Part shown: positions 3,247 to 40,060 of the stretch, in pieces | How positions within the stretch are numbered: the first letter of the stretch is position 1 | How the letters are laid out: the number at the start of each line of letters is the position of its first letter | From: an uncultured Acetatifactor sp. | GTDB lineage: Bacteria; Bacillota; Clostridia; Lachnospirales; Lachnospiraceae | Direction: 5' to 3' | Length of the DNA: 64,000 nucleotides | Assembly (NCBI GenBank): GCA_947594835.1 | Contig: CANQEH010000004.1 | Location: 1-64,000 of the forward strand | The notes under the pieces: generated by a model | What the model was told of the DNA's origin: nothing | Database searches by the model: none | What the model saw: only the letters and a program-made list of their open reading frames with translations | Made by a program: the position numbers and the translations under genes

Positions 3247-4461
3247 TTACATGGGATCCTGCTGACCGTCCCCCTCATAGCCTTCCAGATTCTGGCCGTC
3301 CTCCTGATAATCATCCCCGTCGTAGGGCTCGTACGTCCCATCCTCGTACCCGTCGTCCTCATACTCCCCGCCGTCGTACTCATCGTCCATGTAATCCTCG
3401 TAGCGGAAGCCCGGCGCATCCTTGGCCTGGGTCTCGGACTTGATGTCGATCTTATAGCCGGTGAGTCTGGCTGCCAGCCTGGCGTTCTGGCCCTCTTTGC
3501 CGATGGCTAAGGAGAGCTGGTAATCCGGCACCACCACCTTGGCGGTCTTCTCGTCGGGATCGGCAAACACCGCCACGATCTTTGCGGGAGAAAGGGCGTT
3601 CTGGATCAGGTTGCCGGGGTTTTCGTCCCAGTTGACGATGTCGATCTTTTCCCCCCGCAGCTCGTCCACGATGGCGTTTACCCTGGCGCCGTTTACGCCG
3701 ACGCAGGCGCCCACCGCGTCCACATTGGGATTGTTGCTCCACACCGCGATCTTGGTGCGGCTGCCCGCCTCCCTGGCAATGCTCTTGATCTCCACTGTCC
3801 CGTCCTTGATCTCCGTCACTTCCGCTTCAAACAGGCGCTTTACCAGCTCCGGGTGGGTGCGGCTGACGCTGATGCGGGGGCCTTTGGGAGTGTTCTTTAC
3901 CTCCAGGATGTAGACCTTGATGCGCTCCGTGGGCCGGAACACCTCGGTCTTGACCTGTTCGCTCTCGCTTAACATGGCGTCCGCCTTGCCTAAGTTGATG
4001 CTGATGTTTTTCCCCACATAGCGCTGCACCACTCCGGTGACAACATCCTTTTCCTTCTCATAATACTGGTTGTAGATAACGCTGCGCTCCTCCTCGCGGA
4101 TCTTCTGGAGGATGACGTTCTTGGCGTTCTGGGTGGCGATGCGCCCAAACTCCTTGGACTGTATCTCGATGTGGATCATGTCGCCCACTTTTGCGTCCTG
4201 GGAGATCTTCCCCGCGTCCTCCAGGGAGATCTGCAGGCAGTCGTCCTCCACCTCCTCGGGGCTCTCCACCACTTCCTTTTCCGCGTACACCAGAAAATCA
4301 CAGGTCTCCCTGTCGATTTCCACATGGACGTTGTCCGACTTCCCGAAGTGGTTTTTGCAGGCGGTCAGCAGAGAATTTTCAATGGCCTCAAAGAGCGTTT
4401 CCTTGCTGATCTCTTTCTCCTTCTCCAGGATATCCAGGGCTTCCATCAATTCCTTGTTCAT
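3247..4461 (-). CDS. nusA: Transcription termination/antitermination protein NusA
   Basis: NusA binds RNA polymerase and nascent RNA and modulates pausing, intrinsic termination and antitermination. The start chosen is ATG 4461 (MNKELMEALDILEKEK), preceded by a good GGAGGAAA site; an in-frame ATG 39 bases upstream lacks one. In order: N-terminal polymerase-binding domain (about 1-125), S1 domain, then KH1 and KH2 (for example GACVGVNGARVNAIVDELRG and SLAIGKEGQNARLAARLTG). The Gram-negative acidic repeats are absent, but the last ~50 residues are an unusually acidic Asp/Glu/Tyr/Gly tail (EYDGGEYEDDGYEDG). Second gene of the operon. Confidence 0.97.
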   Translation of the reverse strand: MNKELMEALDILEKEKEISKETLFEAIENSLLTACKNHFGKSDNVHVEIDRETCDFLVYAEKEVVESPEEVEDDCLQISLEDAGKISQDAKVGDMIHIEIQSKEFGRIATQNAKNVILQKIREEERSVIYNQYYEKEKDVVTGVVQRYVGKNISINLGKADAMLSESEQVKTEVFRPTERIKVYILEVKNTPKGPRISVSRTHPELVKRLFEAEVTEIKDGTVEIKSIAREAGSRTKIAVWSNNPNVDAVGACVGVNGARVNAIVDELRGEKIDIVNWDENPGNLIQNALSPAKIVAVFADPDEKTAKVVVPDYQLSLAIGKEGQNARLAARLTGYKIDIKSETQAKDAPGFRYEDYMDDEYDGGEYEDDGYEDGTYEPYDGDDYQEDGQNLEGYEGDGQQDPM

Positions 4462-30888: not shown

Positions 30889-32091
30889 TTACTGGGTCAC
30901 GTCATAGCGGAATCCCTCCTGGGCGTTGTACGCCCCGCTTGCGGTGTAACCGCTGGAGCTATTGGCCTGTGTGGTCATATAGTAGTTTACCAGCGATACG
31001 TTCGTGGCGATGGAAGGGCCAAACTCCTGAAAAAACTGCTGTAACTGGGACATATCGGATTTCCGAAACGCCTCCCCGTCCAGAGAAAGCTTCCCATTTT
31101 CGTCTACGCCGATCCCAAACTTTCCCAGCGCTTCTTTATTCTGCGCCGTCTTTTCCCTGATCCGGGCCAGGTTTGCGATGACGCCGGAATTGCCGCTTGA
31201 GCCTGCGCCGTCCAGCATACTGTTGTAATTGCCCACAAAGCTCTTTACCGCGGCAAAAAGCTTTTCTACATCGTAGCGCTCCCGCCCGTCTTCCCCTGTT
31301 ACCCTTTCAAATAAGGAAGCGGAAGTCAGTTTCTCAAGGTCTTCCTTCAAGGCGGCCGCGCCGGCAGATGCCGTCGTGTCCTCCTCTTTCGTCTTCGCGC
31401 TGCTTACGGCGCCGGAGGAAGCACTGGCAAAGCCCAGGCGGGCCTTCACCGTGGAGCCGTAGCTGGTGACGTCGTCTTTGGAAAACAAGTCCTGCACCTT
31501 AGAGAGATCCACAGTCTTTAACTTGCCCTCGTTTATCTGCAATGTGCCGTCCCGGTTGAGCGTCACGCCGATCTCCGCCAGCTTTGCGGCATTGGCCTCT
31601 GTGCTTCTCATCATGCTCGCCACATGGGAGGTCTTGCCCGTCAGCGTGGAATCCTTCGCCGCGCTGATCACATCGTTGTACTGGGAAACATAATTCTTCA
31701 CTGCGGAGACTACCTTATCCGCCGCGCTGGTGCCGTCTTCCGAGGCGGAATAAAGGCTTGCATCCTGCAGGGTGGAAACCGTATTCGCCAGGGTGGAGAT
31801 TCCCGACGTCAGCTTAGAATTTGCCTGCTGGGTCTCCTTGGATACTTTGGGGTATTTCTTTTCCTCCAAAATCTTTTCCAGAACGCCGTTTGTGCCGGTC
31901 TTCTTCTGGGAGGCCGCCTTCTCCGAAGCGCCTACGCTGCCATAGTAGCTTTTCAACAGCTTGCCATAGCTTCCATTTTTGATGGACGCATAGTCGGAAA
32001 GATAGTTTAAATTGGTGCCGCCTCCGGCAAGCCCCTGAAACAGATAGGAATAATCCTGATTTGTGCCGCCTACGTCAATACCCATTCCCAT
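30889..32091 (-). CDS. FliD-like (flagellar hook-associated protein 2 C-terminal) protein
   Basis: 400 residues from ATG 32091 behind AAAGGAGTGAG. Two stretches resemble the FliD C-terminal signature: KLAEIGVTLNRDGTLQINEG and LGKFGIGVDENGKLSLDGEA, within long helices rich in Ser, Thr, Ala and Gly. No signal peptide. FliD caps the flagellar filament, but no flagellar gene is in the window, the N-terminal FliD domain is not apparent and the protein is short. It may be a FliD-derived protein with another role. A -10 (TATAAT, 32153-32158 on the minus strand) lies upstream. Confidence 0.65.
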   Translation of the reverse strand: MGMGIDVGGTNQDYSYLFQGLAGGGTNLNYLSDYASIKNGSYGKLLKSYYGSVGASEKAASQKKTGTNGVLEKILEEKKYPKVSKETQQANSKLTSGISTLANTVSTLQDASLYSASEDGTSAADKVVSAVKNYVSQYNDVISAAKDSTLTGKTSHVASMMRSTEANAAKLAEIGVTLNRDGTLQINEGKLKTVDLSKVQDLFSKDDVTSYGSTVKARLGFASASSGAVSSAKTKEEDTTASAGAAALKEDLEKLTSASLFERVTGEDGRERYDVEKLFAAVKSFVGNYNSMLDGAGSSGNSGVIANLARIREKTAQNKEALGKFGIGVDENGKLSLDGEAFRKSDMSQLQQFFQEFGPSIATNVSLVNYYMTTQANSSSGYTASGAYNAQEGFRYDVTQ

Positions 32092-32441
32092 ACTCTCACT
32101 CCTTTGATTGTGCCGATGCCGACTGTCCGGGACATCCGTGTCCCTATCACTTATTATATCGGCAAAACCCCTCTGTTCTTTAAGGGCATTATACCATTTT
32201 TTATAAGAAAATACAAGATTTGGCAGGAAGTTTGCAGGACACGCCAATTTTTAATATTCTGCATTCTATCATCTTCCATGTTTCTATTTTAATTCCATGT
32301 TTTTATTCAATATTTTTTATATTATCAGTAATTGTCAAGACAATACTTCTATGATAAAATATCTATTAAGGACAACCGTGTTGCAGGGTGGGCTGACCTT
32401 TCATTCCATATGAAATTCCGTATGAATGGGAGGTGATGCCT

Positions 32442-32531
32442 ATGGGAAATCATTATGATTTCAAGGATGTGCTGACTTTTGGCATATTTCTTCTGGCATT
32501 GCTTACATTTATTTTTACCTTTTGTAAGTAG
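32442..32531 (+). CDS. Holin-like type I toxin peptide, copy 1
   Basis: 29 residues: MGNHYDFKDVLTFGIFLLAL, then a hydrophobic end and FCK. One membrane helix with a short polar start and a single Lys end, the pattern of TxpA/BsrG/Fst-type and 'putative holin-like' toxins (family knowledge). Strong GGGAGG site; an in-frame ATG two codons earlier is too close to it. Promoter TTGTCA (32332-32337), 17 bp, TAAAAT (32355-32360). Toxicity is inferred from form and context only. Confidence 0.85.
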   Translation: MGNHYDFKDVLTFGIFLLALLTFIFTFCK

Positions 32532-32542
32532 CCCTACATAGG

Positions 32543-32582
32543 AATACCACCCCTAAACTTTGGCCAGTGATGGGGTGGTATT
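32543..32582. terminator. Bidirectional terminator, unit 1
   Basis: Eleven-base-pair perfect stem (32543-32553 with 32572-32582) shared by the convergent toxin and antisense transcripts; T-rich on the plus side (TTTCTAT). Confidence 0.75.
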
Positions 32583-32626
32583 TCTATCCTATTTTGGTCA
32601 ACCCACCTTGTGGGCGGTTGTTCCTT
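32543..32626 (-). ncRNA. Predicted antisense RNA (antitoxin), copy 1
   Basis: Minus-strand promoter TTGACA (32655-32660), 16 bp, TATACT (32633-32638) predicts a start near 32626, converging on the toxin gene. The RNA would end at the shared hairpin and overlap the toxin transcript's 3' region, about 85 nucleotides. Antisense arrangement matches type I systems. Confidence 0.7.
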
Positions 32627-32838
32627 ACTTTTAGTATAACGATTCCGGCAAAATTGTCAACCGTTTTTCTGTATTCTATCATCTTCCGCGCTGTTATTTT
32701 AATTTCATGATTTTTATTCTATCAGTAATTGTCATGATAAAACTTCTGTGATAAAATACTGTTTAAGGACAACCGTGTTGCAGGGTGGGCTGACCTTTCA
32801 TTTCATATGAAATTCCGTATGAATGGGAGGTGATGCCT

Positions 32839-32928
32839 ATGGGAAATCATTATGATTTCAAGGATGTGCTGACTTTTGGCATATTTCTTCTGGCATTGCT
32901 TACATTTATTTTTACCTTTTGTAAGTAG
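32839..32928 (+). CDS. Holin-like type I toxin peptide, copy 2
   Basis: 29 residues, identical in sequence to copy 1. Promoter TTGTCA (32729-32734), 17 bp, TAAAAT (32752-32757); here the -35/-10 spacer has diverged from the other copies while the boxes are kept. GGGAGG site before the ATG. The unchanged peptide despite drift in flanking bases suggests selection on the protein. Confidence 0.85.
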   Translation: MGNHYDFKDVLTFGIFLLALLTFIFTFCK

Positions 32929-32940
32929 CCGCACATAGAA

Positions 32941-32979
32941 AAACCACCCCTAAACTTTGACCGAGCGACGGGGTGATTT
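32941..32979. terminator. Bidirectional terminator, unit 2
   Basis: Stem 32941-32950 with 32970-32979 (one mismatch), A/T runs outside on both sides. Confidence 0.7.
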
Positions 32980-33022
32980 TTCTTCCAACTTGGTCAACCC
33001 ACCTTGTGGGCGGTTGTTCCTT
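32941..33022 (-). ncRNA. Predicted antisense RNA (antitoxin), copy 2
   Basis: Promoter on the minus strand TTGACA (33051-33056), 16 bp, TATACT (33029-33034), start near 33022. Same layout as copy 1. Confidence 0.7.
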
Positions 33023-33231
33023 ACTTTTAGTATAACGATTCCGGCAAAATTGTCAACCTTTTTTGTTTTCTATCATCTTTTATGTTTCTATTTTTATTCC
33101 ATTATTTTTATTCTATTAGCAATTGCCAAGACAATACTTCTATGATAAAATATCTTTTAAGGACAACCGTGTTGCAGGGTGGGCTGACCTTTCATTTCAT
33201 ATGAAATTTCGTATGAATGGAGGTGATGCCT

Positions 33232-33321
33232 ATGGGAAATCATTATGATTTCAAGGATGTGCTGACTTTTGGCATATTTCTTCTGGCATTACTTACTTTC
33301 GTTTTTACGTTTGCTAAGTAA
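33232..33321 (+). CDS. Holin-like type I toxin peptide, copy 3
   Basis: 29 residues as copy 1 except the end, which is LTFVFTFAK rather than LTFIFTFCK. Promoter TTGCCA (33123-33128), 17 bp, TAAAAT (33146-33151). GGAGG site (one G fewer than other copies). The Ile-to-Val and Cys-to-Ala changes keep the hydrophobic helix. Confidence 0.85.
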   Translation: MGNHYDFKDVLTFGIFLLALLTFVFTFAK

Positions 33322-33332
33322 AGCTACATAGA

Positions 33333-33372
33333 AAAACCACCCCTCGACTTTGACCAGTAGTAGGGTGGATTT
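33333..33372. terminator. Bidirectional terminator, unit 3
   Basis: Core stem CCACCC (33337-33342) with GGGTGG (33363-33368), extended by A/T pairs after one mismatch. T5 on the minus side, TTTTCT on the plus side. Confidence 0.65.
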
Positions 33373-33416
33373 TCTATCCTTTTCAGGTCAACCCACCTTG
33401 TGGGCGGTTGTTCCTT
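33333..33416 (-). ncRNA. Predicted antisense RNA (antitoxin), copy 3
   Basis: Minus-strand promoter TTGACA (33445-33450), 16 bp, TATACT (33423-33428), start near 33416; would end at a hairpin followed by GGTTTTTC. Confidence 0.7.
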
Positions 33417-33625
33417 ACTTTTAGTATAACGATTCTGGCAAAATTGTCAACCTTTTTGTGTTCTATCATCTTTTACAATTCTATTTTTATTCCTTTGTTT
33501 TTATTTTATTAGCAATTGTCAAGACAATACTTCTATGATAAAATATCTTTTAAGAACAACCGTGTTGCAGGGTGGGCTGACCTTTCGTTTCATATGAAAT
33601 TCCGTATGAATGGGAGGTGATGCCT

Positions 33626-33715
33626 ATGGGAAATCATTTTGATTTCAAGGATGTGCTGACTTTTGGCATATTTCTTCTGGCATTACTTACTTTCGTTTTT
33701 ACGTTTGCTAAGTAA
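33626..33715 (+). CDS. Holin-like type I toxin peptide, copy 4
   Basis: 29 residues as copy 3 but with Phe for Tyr at position 5 (MGNHFDFKDV). Promoter TTGTCA (33516-33521), 17 bp, TAAAAT (33539-33544), GGGAGG site. Last unit of the array, next to a convergent membrane-protein gene. Confidence 0.85.
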   Translation: MGNHFDFKDVLTFGIFLLALLTFVFTFAK

Positions 33716-33726
33716 AGCTACATAGA

Positions 33727-33766
33727 AAAACCACCCCTCGACTTTGACCAGTAATGGGGTGGATTT
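33727..33766. terminator. Bidirectional terminator, unit 4
   Basis: Perfect CCACCCC (33731-33737) with GGGGTGG (33756-33762), A/T pairs beyond one mismatch, T-runs on both strands. Confidence 0.7.
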
Positions 33767-33809
33767 TCTACCTACTTAGGTCAACCCACCTTGTGGGCGG
33801 TTGTTCCTT
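33727..33809 (-). ncRNA. Predicted antisense RNA (antitoxin), copy 4
   Basis: Minus-strand promoter TTGACA (33838-33843), 16 bp, TATACT (33816-33821), start near 33809. Confidence 0.7.
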
Positions 33810-33890
33810 ACTTTTAGTATAACGGTTCCGAAAAAATTGTCAACCGTTTTTATCTGCGTTTTCTGTGCGTTTTTGCTGTGCCCGCGCCCT

Positions 33891-34442
33891 TTATCTCCTG
33901 CCGGACAGACTTTTGATAGCCTGGTAGAGCCCGGCAAATTCCGCATCGGACAGGCTCTTTTCCGGGACGCAGATGCGCTTGTCCGTAAAGGAGATCTCCA
34001 CCACGTTTTTCTTGGAGAAAAACAGGATAATGCCAAAGCAGAGGCAGGCCGCCATAGAGACGTTTAACAGCACATTCAGCCAGCCCGGCAGGGTGAGCGT
34101 TTCCCCCACCCACTGCAAAACAGAGTTTGCCTTGTCCGCCAGATCGCTTGCCTTTTCGCAGAGGGCATTGACAGCCCCTAAGACCACGCCGCTGACCACA
34201 AAGGCCAAGGTCTTTTTGTAAGATCGCATTTTCAGATGGCCCATGCCTAAGAAATTGGCGGGGCTGGCCATGGTCGCCTCCCCCTTGTTTGCATAAAACT
34301 CCTTGTCCTGCAGGTACAAAAACTGCCCGGAAAACAGGACGCGATCCGGCCAGACCTGTATCTCATATTTCCGATTCTGGGTCATGGGGAGATGATAATA
34401 GGGCCCATAGCCCACACCCTGGGGCATATACTGTGACTCCAT
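33891..34442 (-). CDS. Hypothetical membrane protein with PH-like N-terminus
   Basis: 183 residues from ATG 34442 behind AAAGGAGG. The first 75 residues look like a small beta-rich domain (YEIQVWPDRVLFSGQFLYLQ), similar in layout to the next gene's middle part. Two hydrophobic segments follow (LAFVVSGVVLGAVNAL, WLNVLLNVSMAACLCFGIIL) and the end is basic. Function unknown. Convergent with the toxin array and 65 bp downstream of the zinc-ribbon gene, so likely cotranscribed with it. Confidence 0.7.
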   Translation of the reverse strand: MESQYMPQGVGYGPYYHLPMTQNRKYEIQVWPDRVLFSGQFLYLQDKEFYANKGEATMASPANFLGMGHLKMRSYKKTLAFVVSGVVLGAVNALCEKASDLADKANSVLQWVGETLTLPGWLNVLLNVSMAACLCFGIILFFSKKNVVEISFTDKRICVPEKSLSDAEFAGLYQAIKSLSGRR

Positions 34443-34507
34443 GATATTTCCTCCTTTGCGCCTGCCCTTTTTGCAGGCTTCTTTTGTCCTAACACTCCCG
34501 GGCCTGC

Positions 34508-35314
34508 TCAGCCCTTGCCGGTGGCCCGATCCTTCGCCCGGCGGATCTGTTTCTGGAAGTCACGCACGGCAGGAACACCTATGATCTTGGCGTCAAACTT
34601 GATCGCGCCTCCCGCATACTCCATTGAAAAATATGTTTTTCTGTTTAAGATATAACGCACAATTGTGATTAGGATTACGACTGCGTCACCTATCAGGCCC
34701 ACTATTCCAGCAGCATCAGCATCATGGTAAATGCCAAACATATGTTCATCCGTTACAAACCACAGCAATGCTACAATCCAGGGAATTATCAGATAGATCA
34801 GCGTCTTCAAGATGCCGATCGGTTTGCTGTAAATAAACCCGGTTCCGGTGATGTCCTCCAGATCTACAATCTCTTCGCTGATCAGCCATTCCGAGTGTTT
34901 TCCGTTCTCATACAGGAACCTTCCCTGAAAATATACCCGCCTGTCCGTCAACAGAGCATGACACTTTTTGACCTGGCCGAAAAGCAGGTTTTCCAAGTAC
35001 CCGTTCCCCAGCGTCCCCTGCAGCTGTTCATCCGGATCCACAAAAACCTTGCTGTACTTGGAGGGCTCCATATAGTTGGCCGTCTGCTGCCGCCCCATGA
35101 GCCCATTGAAGGTACCGCCCCTCTGCTGTTCCATGGGCCCATGAAAGCTACCGGCTCCCTGCAGCTGCGGCCCGCCGTATCCCCCAGCCTGTCCTCCTGC
35201 GCCCAGCATCTGTATCCCAGGGGCCTGGCTCTGCGCCTGTTCCATTACCGCCCCGCACTTGTCGCAGAATCTCGCGCCCTCCGGCAGATCGTTTCCACAA
35301 TTTTTACAAATCAT
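34508..35314 (-). CDS. Zinc-ribbon membrane protein with PH-like domain
   Basis: 268 residues from ATG 35314 behind GAGGATAGG. N-terminal zinc ribbon (MICKNCGNDLPEGARFCDKC), a Gly/Gln-rich linker, a beta-rich PH-like domain (about 95-165; LGNGYLENLLFGQVKKCHAL, DRRVYFQGRFLYENG), two membrane segments (LIYLIIPWIVALLWFV, IVGLIGDAVVILITIVRYIL) and a basic tail. The domain order is common in uncharacterised Firmicutes membrane proteins. Its promoter is at 35473-35500, with a truncated copy of its own first codons in between. Confidence 0.75.
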   Translation of the reverse strand: MICKNCGNDLPEGARFCDKCGAVMEQAQSQAPGIQMLGAGGQAGGYGGPQLQGAGSFHGPMEQQRGGTFNGLMGRQQTANYMEPSKYSKVFVDPDEQLQGTLGNGYLENLLFGQVKKCHALLTDRRVYFQGRFLYENGKHSEWLISEEIVDLEDITGTGFIYSKPIGILKTLIYLIIPWIVALLWFVTDEHMFGIYHDADAAGIVGLIGDAVVILITIVRYILNRKTYFSMEYAGGAIKFDAKIIGVPAVRDFQKQIRRAKDRATGKG

Positions 35315-38700: not shown

Positions 38701-40060
38701 AGTCCACCATGCTGTCATAGTTTAAAACTGGCTTCAGAGACGATGCCGCGCCCTGTAACGCCGCCAGGCCTTTGGTGACGGCCGTAACCGTAGCCGTATC
38801 CTCGCTATACCAGGGATCGATGCTGCCTAAGCCCGTGATGGCCCCCGTAGAGTCCATGCGGCCCAGCATTGCTGTCAAAACAGTATAGGAAGACAGCTTA
38901 GTCTTTAAATCTTTAATTGCTGTTTCCGCATCCGTTTTGTCCCTCTGGGCGTCCGCATCCCCGGAGGAGACGCTTAAGCGCTCGTTAGCCTTCTGCCACT
39001 TGGCGATATTTTCGGCATAGGGGTTTACGAAGGTGTCGGGATCGGCCAGCGCATTGATCGCCTCTTCCTGGCTTTTCAAAGCTTGGATCCCCATTTCTCC
39101 GCCTGCCATCTCCTTCATCTTCTTGATGGAGGCGTCCAGGGTCTGGGCCGTGGTCAGATCCGACTGCAGGGTCTCCAATTTCGACTTTGCCGACAAGAGC
39201 GCCGTCTTCTGGGCTGCCAGCTGAGCGCTGATCGAATCCTGCTGCTCTTCCAGCTGTTTCTTTCCGTCCTCCAGCTCCTGGCGGCCGTCCTCCAGTTCCT
39301 GGCGGCTGTCTGCAAGCTCCTGCTGGCTGTCCAGAAGCTTCTGGCGGTTGTCCACCAGCTCCCGGTTGCCGTCTTCCAGCTCCCGGCGGCTCTCCTCCAG
39401 CTGTTTTTTCCCGTCCTCCAGCTCCTGTCTGGCCTCCGCCATCTGCCCGTCAATCGCCGCATAGACCTTGGCGTTCATCTCCTCTACCTTGTCCTTACGG
39501 ATGACGACATTGACGCTCTCCTCCAAAAGGCCGGTGCCGTTTACGCTGGCCACACCCTCCAGGCTTTCCAGTTCCGGTATCACGGTGTCCTGGACATAGG
39601 TGCTGATGTCCCCGTTGTCCATGCCCTCTACGCCCACCGCTGCGATCATCACCGGCAGCATATCCGGGTTCAGTTTCATGATGATGGGGCTGCCTATGGC
39701 GTCGTCCCAATAGCTTGTGATCTGATCCAGGCTCTCCCGGATCTCCAAGGACACCGCGTTCATGTCCGCCGTCTGGGCAAACTCCAGGATCACCATGGAA
39801 TAGTTCTCGTTTGAGACGGAGCTGATGCCCTCGATGTTGCTGACCGTGGCCATGGCCGCCTCCACCGGCTGGGTCACCGCCAGCTCCACGGTCTCCGGGC
39901 TGGCGCCGGGATAGGTGGTCATCACGATCACATAGGGAAGGCTGATGCTGGGCAGAAGATCAGCCGTCATTCTGGTAAAAGACACCACTCCCAGAACCAC
40001 GGCCAATATGACGCCCACAAGCACTGTATATGGTTTTTTCACGCTGAATTTTGAAATCAC
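35768..40060 (-). CDS. RND-family efflux permease with long coiled-coil insertion
   Basis: 1430 residues, about 380 longer than AcrB-type pumps. GTG start at 40060 behind AAGGAG. N-terminal helix (PYTVLVGVILAVVLGVVSFT) and first porter region (PVEAAMATVSNIEGISSVSN) are normal. The extra length is in the first periplasmic loop: repeated RQELEDGKKQLEE-type heptads at about 208-275, a linker, and a second coiled coil (QLDDAAKQLEDAREQLKDAE) near 545-590. The rest is standard, including the helix-4 motif GIGMLVDNSIVVIENIYR and a second membrane half ending in a basic tail. No adaptor or outer-membrane channel gene is adjacent, as expected for a monoderm. Substrate unknown. Confidence 0.92.
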   Translation of the reverse strand: MISKFSVKKPYTVLVGVILAVVLGVVSFTRMTADLLPSISLPYVIVMTTYPGASPETVELAVTQPVEAAMATVSNIEGISSVSNENYSMVILEFAQTADMNAVSLEIRESLDQITSYWDDAIGSPIIMKLNPDMLPVMIAAVGVEGMDNGDISTYVQDTVIPELESLEGVASVNGTGLLEESVNVVIRKDKVEEMNAKVYAAIDGQMAEARQELEDGKKQLEESRRELEDGNRELVDNRQKLLDSQQELADSRQELEDGRQELEDGKKQLEEQQDSISAQLAAQKTALLSAKSKLETLQSDLTTAQTLDASIKKMKEMAGGEMGIQALKSQEEAINALADPDTFVNPYAENIAKWQKANERLSVSSGDADAQRDKTDAETAIKDLKTKLSSYTVLTAMLGRMDSTGAITGLGSIDPWYSEDTATVTAVTKGLAALQGAASSLKPVLNYDSMVDSLNAMTMGLGYDAYAAQVFSGLASQNIKNMTDLNNAVNSLSGALTQIEQGQMSAAIEFANGKASIALGEYQLELAQTQLDAGEDQIQSGLDQLDDAAKQLEDAREQLKDAEAQLADGEEQFADAKEAAYEQADMGKTLTVDTITGLLTAQNFSMPAGYVTEEGTDYLVRVGDKPETVEELKELPLMDLHMDGVPVITLGDVADVFYTDNSDEIYANVNGSPGVMLTIQKQTGYSTGEVSDRLGERFAEMMAQNGKLSLITLMDQGIYIDLVMDSILDNILYGAVLAVLILLLFLKDLRPTLVVALSIPVSLVTAIVCMYFSGVTLNVISLSGLALGIGMLVDNSIVVIENIYRLRSEGASVQEAAIQGAKEVAGAILASTLTTVCVFLPIVFTEGITRQLFVDMGLTIAYSLMASLLIALTVVPAMSSKLLGKTRQQKEGRIYGVLLNGYEKVLKGALRAKPLVLLLVAGLLAASAALALRNGTAFMADMDSTQLTVSVTLDQDATLQETGAVADQVAEAILSIEDVQDVGAMTSTSTMSLLGGGSGSTNAATIYVVTREDKKKTNEEIADIIYEKTAGMDAQIQVDTSSMDMSAMGGSGISIEVRGRDLDTIQRIAQEVAAVVESVEGTAEVSDGLEEAKEELRVTVRREDAVHYGLTVAQVYTQLYTKLAEAGSATTLVAADKDYNVYVKNESDLELTRSMLQDIPITGTDEKGESVEIPLQDIADLAPAQALTSINRADQTRYVAVSAAIADGYNVGLVSAAVEEKLADYELPAGYQLVFSGENEMIVDAMRQVLLMLTLALLFMYLIMVAQFQSLLSPFIIMFTIPLAFTGGFLGLWISGSEVSVIAMIGFVMLSGIIVNNGIVLIDYMNQLRESGMEKREAILTAGRTRMRPVLMTALTTILGLSTMVFSQDMGSEMARPMAVVTIGGLFYGTLLTLVVIPCIYDLFIREKKEGRKAKLRRIPKRKRQAEED

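Follow-up and report, generated by a model that had tools for sequence, protein, structure and literature searches.

Tandem copies of a predicted type I toxin–antitoxin cassette, with a predicted leader–tail helix in the toxin RNA, in an uncultured Acetatifactor

In the bsrG/SR4 and bsrE/SR5 systems of Bacillus subtilis (TxpA/BsrG and BsrE/BsrH families), a small hydrophobic peptide is encoded opposite a convergent antisense RNA that lies over the 3′ part of its mRNA. Extracts of the published accounts describe how the terminator loop of SR4 first contacts loop L3 of bsrG, after which SR4 pairs with the 3′ part of helix P1 (PMC6562991), and how its binding extends the stem enclosing the bsrG Shine–Dalgarno sequence (SD) from 4 to 8 bp (PMC7430163). 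The ribosome binding sites of txpA, bsrE and bsrG are shut by 4–5 base pairs, and the same extracts report no such SD change for SR5 acting on bsrE or RatA acting on txpA (PMC6562991). Elsewhere, repeats pair the antisense with the toxin RNA in Fst/par control (PMC4147584, PMC8167048), the full-length hok and aapA mRNAs conceal their SD through a 5′–3′ interaction (PMC6733600), and Ldr/Rdl and Ibs/Sib of Escherichia coli exist in several copies per genome, with three Ldr in tandem (PMC4147584). Here, a tandem array of four units is described from an uncultured Acetatifactor sp., probably a gut bacterium (assembly GCA_947594835.1, contig CANQEH010000004.1, positions 1 to 64,000; this whole stretch of 64,000 nucleotides is termed the window). 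Each unit is, in our estimation, rather probably a type I toxin–antitoxin cassette near the BsrE/BsrG/TxpA (Hol_Tox) kind, in which control would be exerted by capture of the mRNA tail.

The array appears as four direct repeats at 32300–33851 (period 394, 3.9 copies, 90% matches, score 2422 in Tandem Repeats Finder), with units spaced 397, 394 and 393 bp apart and leaders starting at 32368, 32765, 33159 and 33552. On the + strand, each unit comprises in order a promoter, a ~74-nucleotide (nt) leader ending in GGAGGTGATGCCT, a 29-codon open reading frame (ORF), a hairpin (T1) and a 29-base tail, GGTCAACCCACCTTGTGGGCGGTTGTTCC, identical in all four; a convergent − strand promoter follows. Promoter and terminator calls are consensus matches throughout. 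In a scan of 32200–33900, 15 sites resembled promoters, compared with 5.0 ± 2.2 in shuffled sequence. The four that score 11/12 and four of those that score 10/12 belong to the units, each of which has a single TTGACA-16-TATACT on the − strand (11/12) and a single TTGTCA/TTGCCA-17-TAAAAT with TG on the + strand (10/12). A preliminary description made from the letters of the window had proposed four ~394-bp units, each with a hydrophobic 29-codon ORF, a hairpin and two promoters kept in every copy, and the repeat and promoter analyses confirm it. It had also held that the peptide is nearly fixed while the spacers drift, which agrees with the mean pairwise identities (ORF 0.94, leader 0.96 and − promoter 0.93, against 0.78 for the AT-rich spacer); the 0.71 obtained for the 3′ untranslated/hairpin stretch is too low, as stretch and tail were cut unevenly there. 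Units 1 and 2 encode the same peptide, unit 3 differs by I24V and C28A, and unit 4 by these two and Y5F. The features are listed below in window coordinates; R1 is a covariance model of the antisense region built from 44 sequences.

32332..32360, + strand: unit 1 toxin promoter, TTGTCA-17-TAAAAT, TG before the −10 (promoter scan)
32368..32398, + strand: unit 1 mRNA leader (predicted 5′ end), tail-pairing, with the anti-SD arm in its 3′ part
32442..32531, + strand: unit 1 toxin ORF, 29 amino acids
32547..32578, no strand: unit 1 hairpin T1, predicted antisense terminator or internal mRNA loop
32596..32624, + strand: unit 1 tail, with complementarity to both leader and antisense 5′ region
32537..32632, − strand: unit 1 predicted antisense RNA region (R1, 107.6 bits)
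32633..32660, − strand: unit 1 antisense promoter, TTGACA-16-TATACT (promoter scan)
32729..32757, + strand: unit 2 toxin promoter (promoter scan)
32765..32795, + strand: unit 2 mRNA leader
32839..32928, + strand: unit 2 toxin ORF, 29 amino acids
32944..32976, no strand: unit 2 hairpin T1 (by eye from sequence and fold)
32992..33020, + strand: unit 2 tail
32934..33028, − strand: unit 2 predicted antisense RNA region (R1, 98.5 bits)
33029..33056, − strand: unit 2 antisense promoter (promoter scan)
33123..33151, + strand: unit 3 toxin promoter (promoter scan)
33159..33189, + strand: unit 3 mRNA leader
33232..33321, + strand: unit 3 toxin ORF, 29 amino acids
33337..33368, no strand: unit 3 hairpin T1
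33386..33414, + strand: unit 3 tail
33327..33422, − strand: unit 3 predicted antisense RNA region (R1, 104 bits)
33423..33450, − strand: unit 3 antisense promoter (promoter scan)
33516..33544, + strand: unit 4 toxin promoter (promoter scan)
33552..33582, + strand: unit 4 mRNA leader
33626..33715, + strand: unit 4 toxin ORF, 29 amino acids
33731..33762, no strand: unit 4 hairpin T1
33779..33807, + strand: unit 4 tail
33721..33815, − strand: unit 4 predicted antisense RNA region (R1, 104.9 bits)
33816..33843, − strand: unit 4 antisense promoter (promoter scan)

In the proposed mechanism, the + promoter would give rise to a toxin mRNA encoding a membrane peptide of 29 residues, and the − promoter to an antisense RNA of ~85 nt terminating at T1. 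The toxin mRNA would read through T1, there an internal stem-loop, and stop near the antisense start; its last ~29 nt, the tail, could base-pair with the 5′ leader of the same molecule. The SD is an alternative pairing partner for the 3′ part of that leader. The antisense RNA, perfectly complementary to tail and T1, would capture the tail and free the leader to shut the SD, and the antisense:mRNA duplex would in addition be a target for RNase III. One and the same antisense 5′ region occurs in all four units and, genome-wide, in 10/11 strong antisense genes, so that each of these antisense RNAs could act on every toxin mRNA. What the sequences themselves show are the two promoters (as consensus matches), the selection on the peptide, the leader–tail helix with its + strand bias, the leader–SD helix and the excess of toxin loss; transcription, the 3′ end of the mRNA, toxicity and the direction of the switch are inferred.

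The leader–tail helix is central to this proposal. In an RNAalifold consensus of 58 units (those below 93% identity among 78), leader columns 4–25 pair with columns 313–334, the + strand of the antisense start. Over 18 pairs, 98.0% of cells are paired, against 36–59% when the arms are slid, and the figure is still 97.8% when the helix is lengthened to 24 pairs. Covariation (0.127 vs 0.098) and the number of double-change cells (21 vs 5.6) were reached in 0/500 shuffles each, and the count of doubly changed pairs (4 vs 2.2) in 29/500. Among 46 divergent units (those below 72% identity in a set of 133), the mean energy of the leader:tail duplex is −42.4 kcal/mol, whereas dinucleotide shuffles give −22.9 (mean z −5.6), and in 40/46 at most 1/60 shuffles are as strong; non-cognate tails average −32.6. 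Folded as − strand RNA, the helix is weaker than on the + strand in 45/46 units (mean −33.9), as expected with G-U pairs, and foldability would thus be maintained in the RNA of the toxin strand. Leader-core conservation is inflated by the selection of stretches through a leader motif, and the shuffle controls leave relatedness in, so that classes of locus with different sequence provide the better evidence. The helix recurs with different sequence in class B (L191, L197, L200, L204) and class C (L039), and, by fold prediction only, in class E, the separate locus L251 of the window genome (C3:76978-77061). In class D, whose leader resembles that of the window's own class A, it is found in 5/5 leaders (0/100 shuffles each). 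Class D comprises L246–L250 (genomes G689, G661, G031, G678 and G658), the tail of which bears GGAGGU or GGGAGGU, a copy of the SD.

The second helix, between the 3′ part of the leader and the SD, is paired in 97.7% of cells. For unit 1 of the window, duplex energies are −21.3 for leader:SD, −44.5 for leader:tail and −68.1 for antisense:tail, and with this order the antisense RNA should win the tail, leaving the leader for the SD. For the class B–E units that were folded, the SD is predicted to be more open if the tail is present than if the RNA is cut at T1 in 10/10 (e.g. 0.28 vs 0.01); one class D unit and one of the 78 class A units, in which a pattern was missing, were left out of the folding.

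Leader–tail pairing implies that the toxin mRNA must run through T1. A run of at least five T follows T1 on the − strand in 50/56 units and on the + strand in 18/56 (56 of the 58 units having all patterns), so T1 looks mainly like an antisense terminator. The shared bidirectional hairpin of the preliminary description is accordingly present in every unit, but is weak as a terminator in the toxin direction, and in place of the ~220-nt plus-strand RNA it had expected, one of ~255–265 nt is predicted, which probably reads through T1 to ~+257 nt. The tail hairpin is followed by ~6 T in 10; this T-rich stretch doubles as the antisense start, no terminator was called in it by the scan, and we infer the mRNA 3′ end on that account.

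The likeness to bsrG/SR4 extends to several details. By sequence and folding, the leader pairs with the 3′ region of the predicted mRNA and the antisense covers that region; the antisense terminator loop lies opposite an mRNA loop, the antisense pairs with the 3′ part of the main mRNA helix, and the SD stem is short. Unlike SR4, which has 180 nt, the predicted antisense of ~85 nt lies almost wholly inside the predicted mRNA, which itself appears to end at the antisense start. Also unlike bsrG/SR4 are the multiple copies, in tandem and scattered (as many as 9 in one genome), the antitoxin-only copies, the Lachnospiraceae-type hosts and a peptide scoring under the Pfam cut-off.

By its substitution pattern, the toxin peptide is under purifying selection: dN/dS (nonsynonymous to synonymous rates) is 0.127 over 74 intact 29-codon copies (69 distinct coding sequences, 2146 pairs), and third positions are the most variable. 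These copies come from 80 of 89 leader-motif stretches together with loci of the window genome and of relatives (114 rows, 94 distinct). The best 19-residue stretch of the peptide has a mean Kyte–Doolittle hydropathy of 2.5. The Pfam family Hol_Tox (PF16935) is passed by sister loci sharing RNA parts with the array: class D peptides, whose loci were found through the antisense model and have the same leader and antisense start, score 44.5, 50.1 and 24.1 bits, while in class B L200 passes at 26.2 bits and L204 fails at 18.6, class C fails at 17.5, and the class E locus reaches 27 bits. As the window peptides themselves score 14–16 bits against a cut-off of 23.3, they are placed beside Hol_Tox and not in it. 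The type I assignment of the preliminary description, which had named TxpA/RatA, BsrG/SR4 and Fst/RNAII as kin, is supported on the BsrE/BsrG/TxpA side, but Fst is not the closest relative.

The relative frequency of toxin and antisense loss points in the same direction. In 81 genomes of the genus, 44 R1 matches score at least 70 bits, of which 33 have an ORF match next to them (partial at the N-terminus in five cases) and 11 have none, whereas 31 of the 33 ORF matches of at least 50 bits have an antisense match and 2 do not. All 11 ORF-less antisense genes were displayed and retain at most an ORF fragment; one, G012:C213, is at a contig end, and its ORF diverges before that end. Only this strong set was used, because the ORF model misses class D loci: at a looser 40 bits, 38/72 antisense matches have an ORF match, and among the 23 further ORF-less matches the seven displayed are class D, intact or broken. 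Loss of the toxin with the antisense retained thus exceeds the reverse in a ratio that is indicative, as the detection limits of the two models differ. The array of genome G013 (L238, G013:C2:59700-62400) has seven antisense genes and four toxin ORFs, its three antisense-only repeats being interleaved with the full units. Peptide frames broken in relatives, which the preliminary description had thought would speak against a toxin–antitoxin pair, do occur, but 8/9 such copies retain the antisense motif (L089 does not), as the toxin–antitoxin reading predicts. Across related units, the best antisense promoter scores on average 9.9 against 8.1 in shuffles (n=89), and the best toxin promoter only 8.8 against 7.9 (n=90). 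Purifying selection, both promoters in 4/4 units and toxin loss outnumbering antisense loss together support a multicopy type I cassette.

A number of observations weigh against the proposed reading. The T-runs after T1 in unit 1 of the window are short (3 on the + strand and 2 on the antisense strand), and a terminator scan of 32200–33900, limited to loops of 3–8 and thereby excluding T1, returned none on the + or the − strand. In class A, the class of the window, the SD is predicted to be closed whether the tail is present (unpaired 0.17) or the RNA is cut at T1 (0.15), being more open with the tail in 43/77 units and less open in 19/77; the start codon alone opens clearly (0.82 vs 0.51). 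Opening of the SD by the tail is weakened as a general rule, since class A shows almost none. The cognate tail is the best partner of its leader in only 14/46 divergent units, and 6/46 have no leader–tail helix beyond shuffles (L160, L163, L170, L185, L188 and L036); L170 has lost its leader, and L185, L188 and L036 have no such excuse. Two strong toxin ORFs in the genus sample have no detected antisense gene, and L160 and L163, from the family set, keep leader and ORF with no recognisable antisense part, contrary to the asymmetry of loss. To these may be added the Hol_Tox gathering score missed by the window peptides, and the fact that the leader–tail helix would be a counterpart of bsrG P1 by likeness to the description of bsrG, which limits the comparison.

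An Fst/par-like arrangement, in which T1, as a bidirectional terminator common to both RNAs, ends the mRNA, and direct repeats let the antisense 5′ region pair directly with leader and ribosome binding site, is improbable. In Fst/par of pAD1 (RNAI/RNAII), the convergent RNAs are of ~210 and ~65 nt, and, as here, they surround one hairpin and specify a toxin of ~30 residues. A convergent pair of RNAs, one of ~220 and one of ~85 nt, surrounding a hairpin would resemble RNAI/RNAII as portrayed in extracts of PMC4147584 and PMC8167048, and the 18/56 units with a fair + strand T-tract after T1 are what such a terminator would need. On the other hand, the leader:antisense duplex (−20.8 vs −17.4 shuffled, mean z −1.1, 62 distinct pairs) is equalled by homodimers and is far weaker than the same-strand leader:tail duplex, and loop–loop pairing is no better for cognate (−9.75) than for non-cognate partners (−9.33; 19 units). 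Unlike Fst/par, no antisense-to-leader direct repeats are detectable, and the peptide is not Fst-like: it matches Hol_Tox weakly, and no Fst family is among its Pfam or NCBIfam matches at E ≤ 10. The antisense would therefore probably capture the mRNA tail as in BsrG/SR4, and not act via repeats of the Fst type. Another candidate, kissing of the 5′ hairpins of the two RNAs through identical arms and complementary loops, was rejected, because cognate loops pair no better than non-cognate ones. The arms of these hairpins do covary by identity (32 unique pairs, 0/1000 permutations, phylogeny uncontrolled), an identity accounted for by the leader–tail helix, which explains it together with the + strand G-U bias.

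We give about the same low credence to a lock of the Hok/AapA type, in which the leader–tail helix would keep the full-length mRNA inert until 3′ trimming to T1 activates it. A 5′–3′ long-distance helix is a hallmark of the hok and aapA mRNAs in extracts of PMC6733600, and the helix found here, with its covariation, is of this kind; unlike in hok/Sok and aapA/IsoA, the tail mimics the SD and not an anti-SD (GGGAGGU in class D), and the antisense lies at the 3′ end. The predicted SD is on average not more closed in the presence of the tail. Cutting at T1 is instead predicted to close it further in all ten class B–E units, and in class A the cut SD is more closed in 43/77 and more open in 19/77, by little. 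Still less likely is a multicopy regulatory RNA that accompanies, with the same anatomy, a harmless small membrane protein for signalling or membrane stress. In its favour, toxicity is only predicted, Hol_Tox names are annotations and up to 9 copies occur per genome; against it, toxin-less antisense genes outnumber antisense-less ORFs and the antisense is retained after ORF loss at C3:88193 of the window genome and in the G013 array.

The cassette is not confined to the window. In the window genome (2.76 Mb in 47 contigs) it occupies four loci, of which the window array is the largest, with further units on C9 (two), C30 (one) and C2 (two). There are 9 toxin ORFs, 8 of them unbroken, and 11 strong antisense genes (R1, 95.8–108.2 bits), two of which are toxin-less: at C3:88142-88303 (L027 ~3640-3790), a deletion took most of leader and ORF and spared hairpin, tail and antisense promoter, and at C21:5959-6065 (L028 ~3450-3560) the antisense part alone is present. 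Two weak R1 matches (35.9 and 25.6 bits) and a weak ORF remnant at C7:34618 (59% identity) complete the inventory. At C9:1935, an insert disrupts the usual toxin reading frame. One short palindromic insert breaks the toxin frame both in L024 (minus strand, C9:1815-2142) and in L128, from a different genome, and a longer fused frame from an upstream ATG is still open. Unit cores are most similar to those of their array neighbours (units 1–2 95%, units 3–4 96%, the C2 pair 96%), a pattern expected from local duplication. The 29-base antisense 5′ region is identical in 10/11 strong antisense genes, C21 differing at two bases, and cross-action among units is for that reason plausible.

The peptide and covariance-model searches suggested in the preliminary description recovered the peptide in 26/81 genus genomes (E ≤ 0.01) and antisense matches in 38/81 (E ≤ 0.001), and the peptide in 87/396 genomes of the family (74/280 genera), where the 9 matches of the window genome are the maximum. 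The small array of that description is thus real, but forms one part of a genome-wide and family-wide set. Copy numbers are likely to be minimum values, because metagenome assemblies, in which repeats tend to be fragmented, make up many of the relatives. Exact matches to a 20-base leader motif were found in 89 stretches, all on named genome contigs; 40 of the 80 listed are labelled Lachnospiraceae bacterium, many others carry names of Lachnospiraceae genera (Acetatifactor, Roseburia, Blautia, Sporofaciens, Parablautia, Mediterraneibacter), and three labelled Bacteroides, Bacteroidales or Gastranaerophilales are perhaps misbinned. Four IMG/VR contigs have a unit, and the larger genes of two were scanned: L051 (IMGVR_UViG_3300035327_000463) carries an intact unit with terminase/portal, integrase and ParA-like genes on a phage-like contig, and L049 gave no terminase, integrase or ParA-like match among its larger genes. 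No match was obtained by tblastn of the 29-residue and class D peptides against phage and plasmid collections. In L118 and L119, from different genomes, the SD and the start region are separated by an inserted short inverted repeat; L066 lies directly 3′ of what appears by eye to be a tRNA 3′ end with a terminator, and its toxin promoter and first leader bases are gone.

Acquisition of the block had been suggested from its AT-richness. The low G+C content is borne out (~39% vs 50–62% in the surroundings), but acquisition is unsupported by it, because units in other genomes are likewise low in G+C (core 41.6 ± 2.1% vs flanks 46.9 ± 5.5%, 55 units). A search for an empty site with the array and both flanks matched 52/81 genus genomes; among the matches listed, the best three candidates per genome, both flanks were on one contig only in the window genome, and no empty site is claimed. 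Two − strand genes border the array, one having a FliD C-terminal domain and the other no Pfam match, with an AcrB-like efflux gene beyond. Within the latter, at 39264–39427, there is a 21-base repeat of 7.8 copies. Rfam matches in 31500–34700 at E ≤ 1 were just two, both weak and under the gathering score.

Multicopy type I cassettes, in tandem for Ldr, are familiar from Ldr/Rdl and Ibs/Sib of E. coli, although peptide, antisense position and phylum differ. In a search of an open-access collection, most subscription papers lying outside it, no description of the present family was recognised; both this multicopy branch near BsrE/TxpA (Hol_Tox) and the leader–tail pairing of the toxin mRNA appear to be new here. 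More tentatively, and less likely than not, the array and its scattered relatives might constitute one cross-acting network, in which leader:tail pairing opens the mRNA, the antisense acts as a leader decoy competing for the tail, antitoxin-only repeats (two in the window genome, three in the G013 array) raise a shared dose, and arrays grow or shed toxins to tune a genome-wide threshold.

If the tail-capture reading is true, control of the BsrG type, known in detail from B. subtilis, would extend to many Lachnospiraceae-type bacteria, and the covariation would show that the leader–tail helix is maintained by selection. The arrays, with their unequal numbers of toxin and antitoxin copies, would then offer natural settings for testing cross-neutralisation and dosage.

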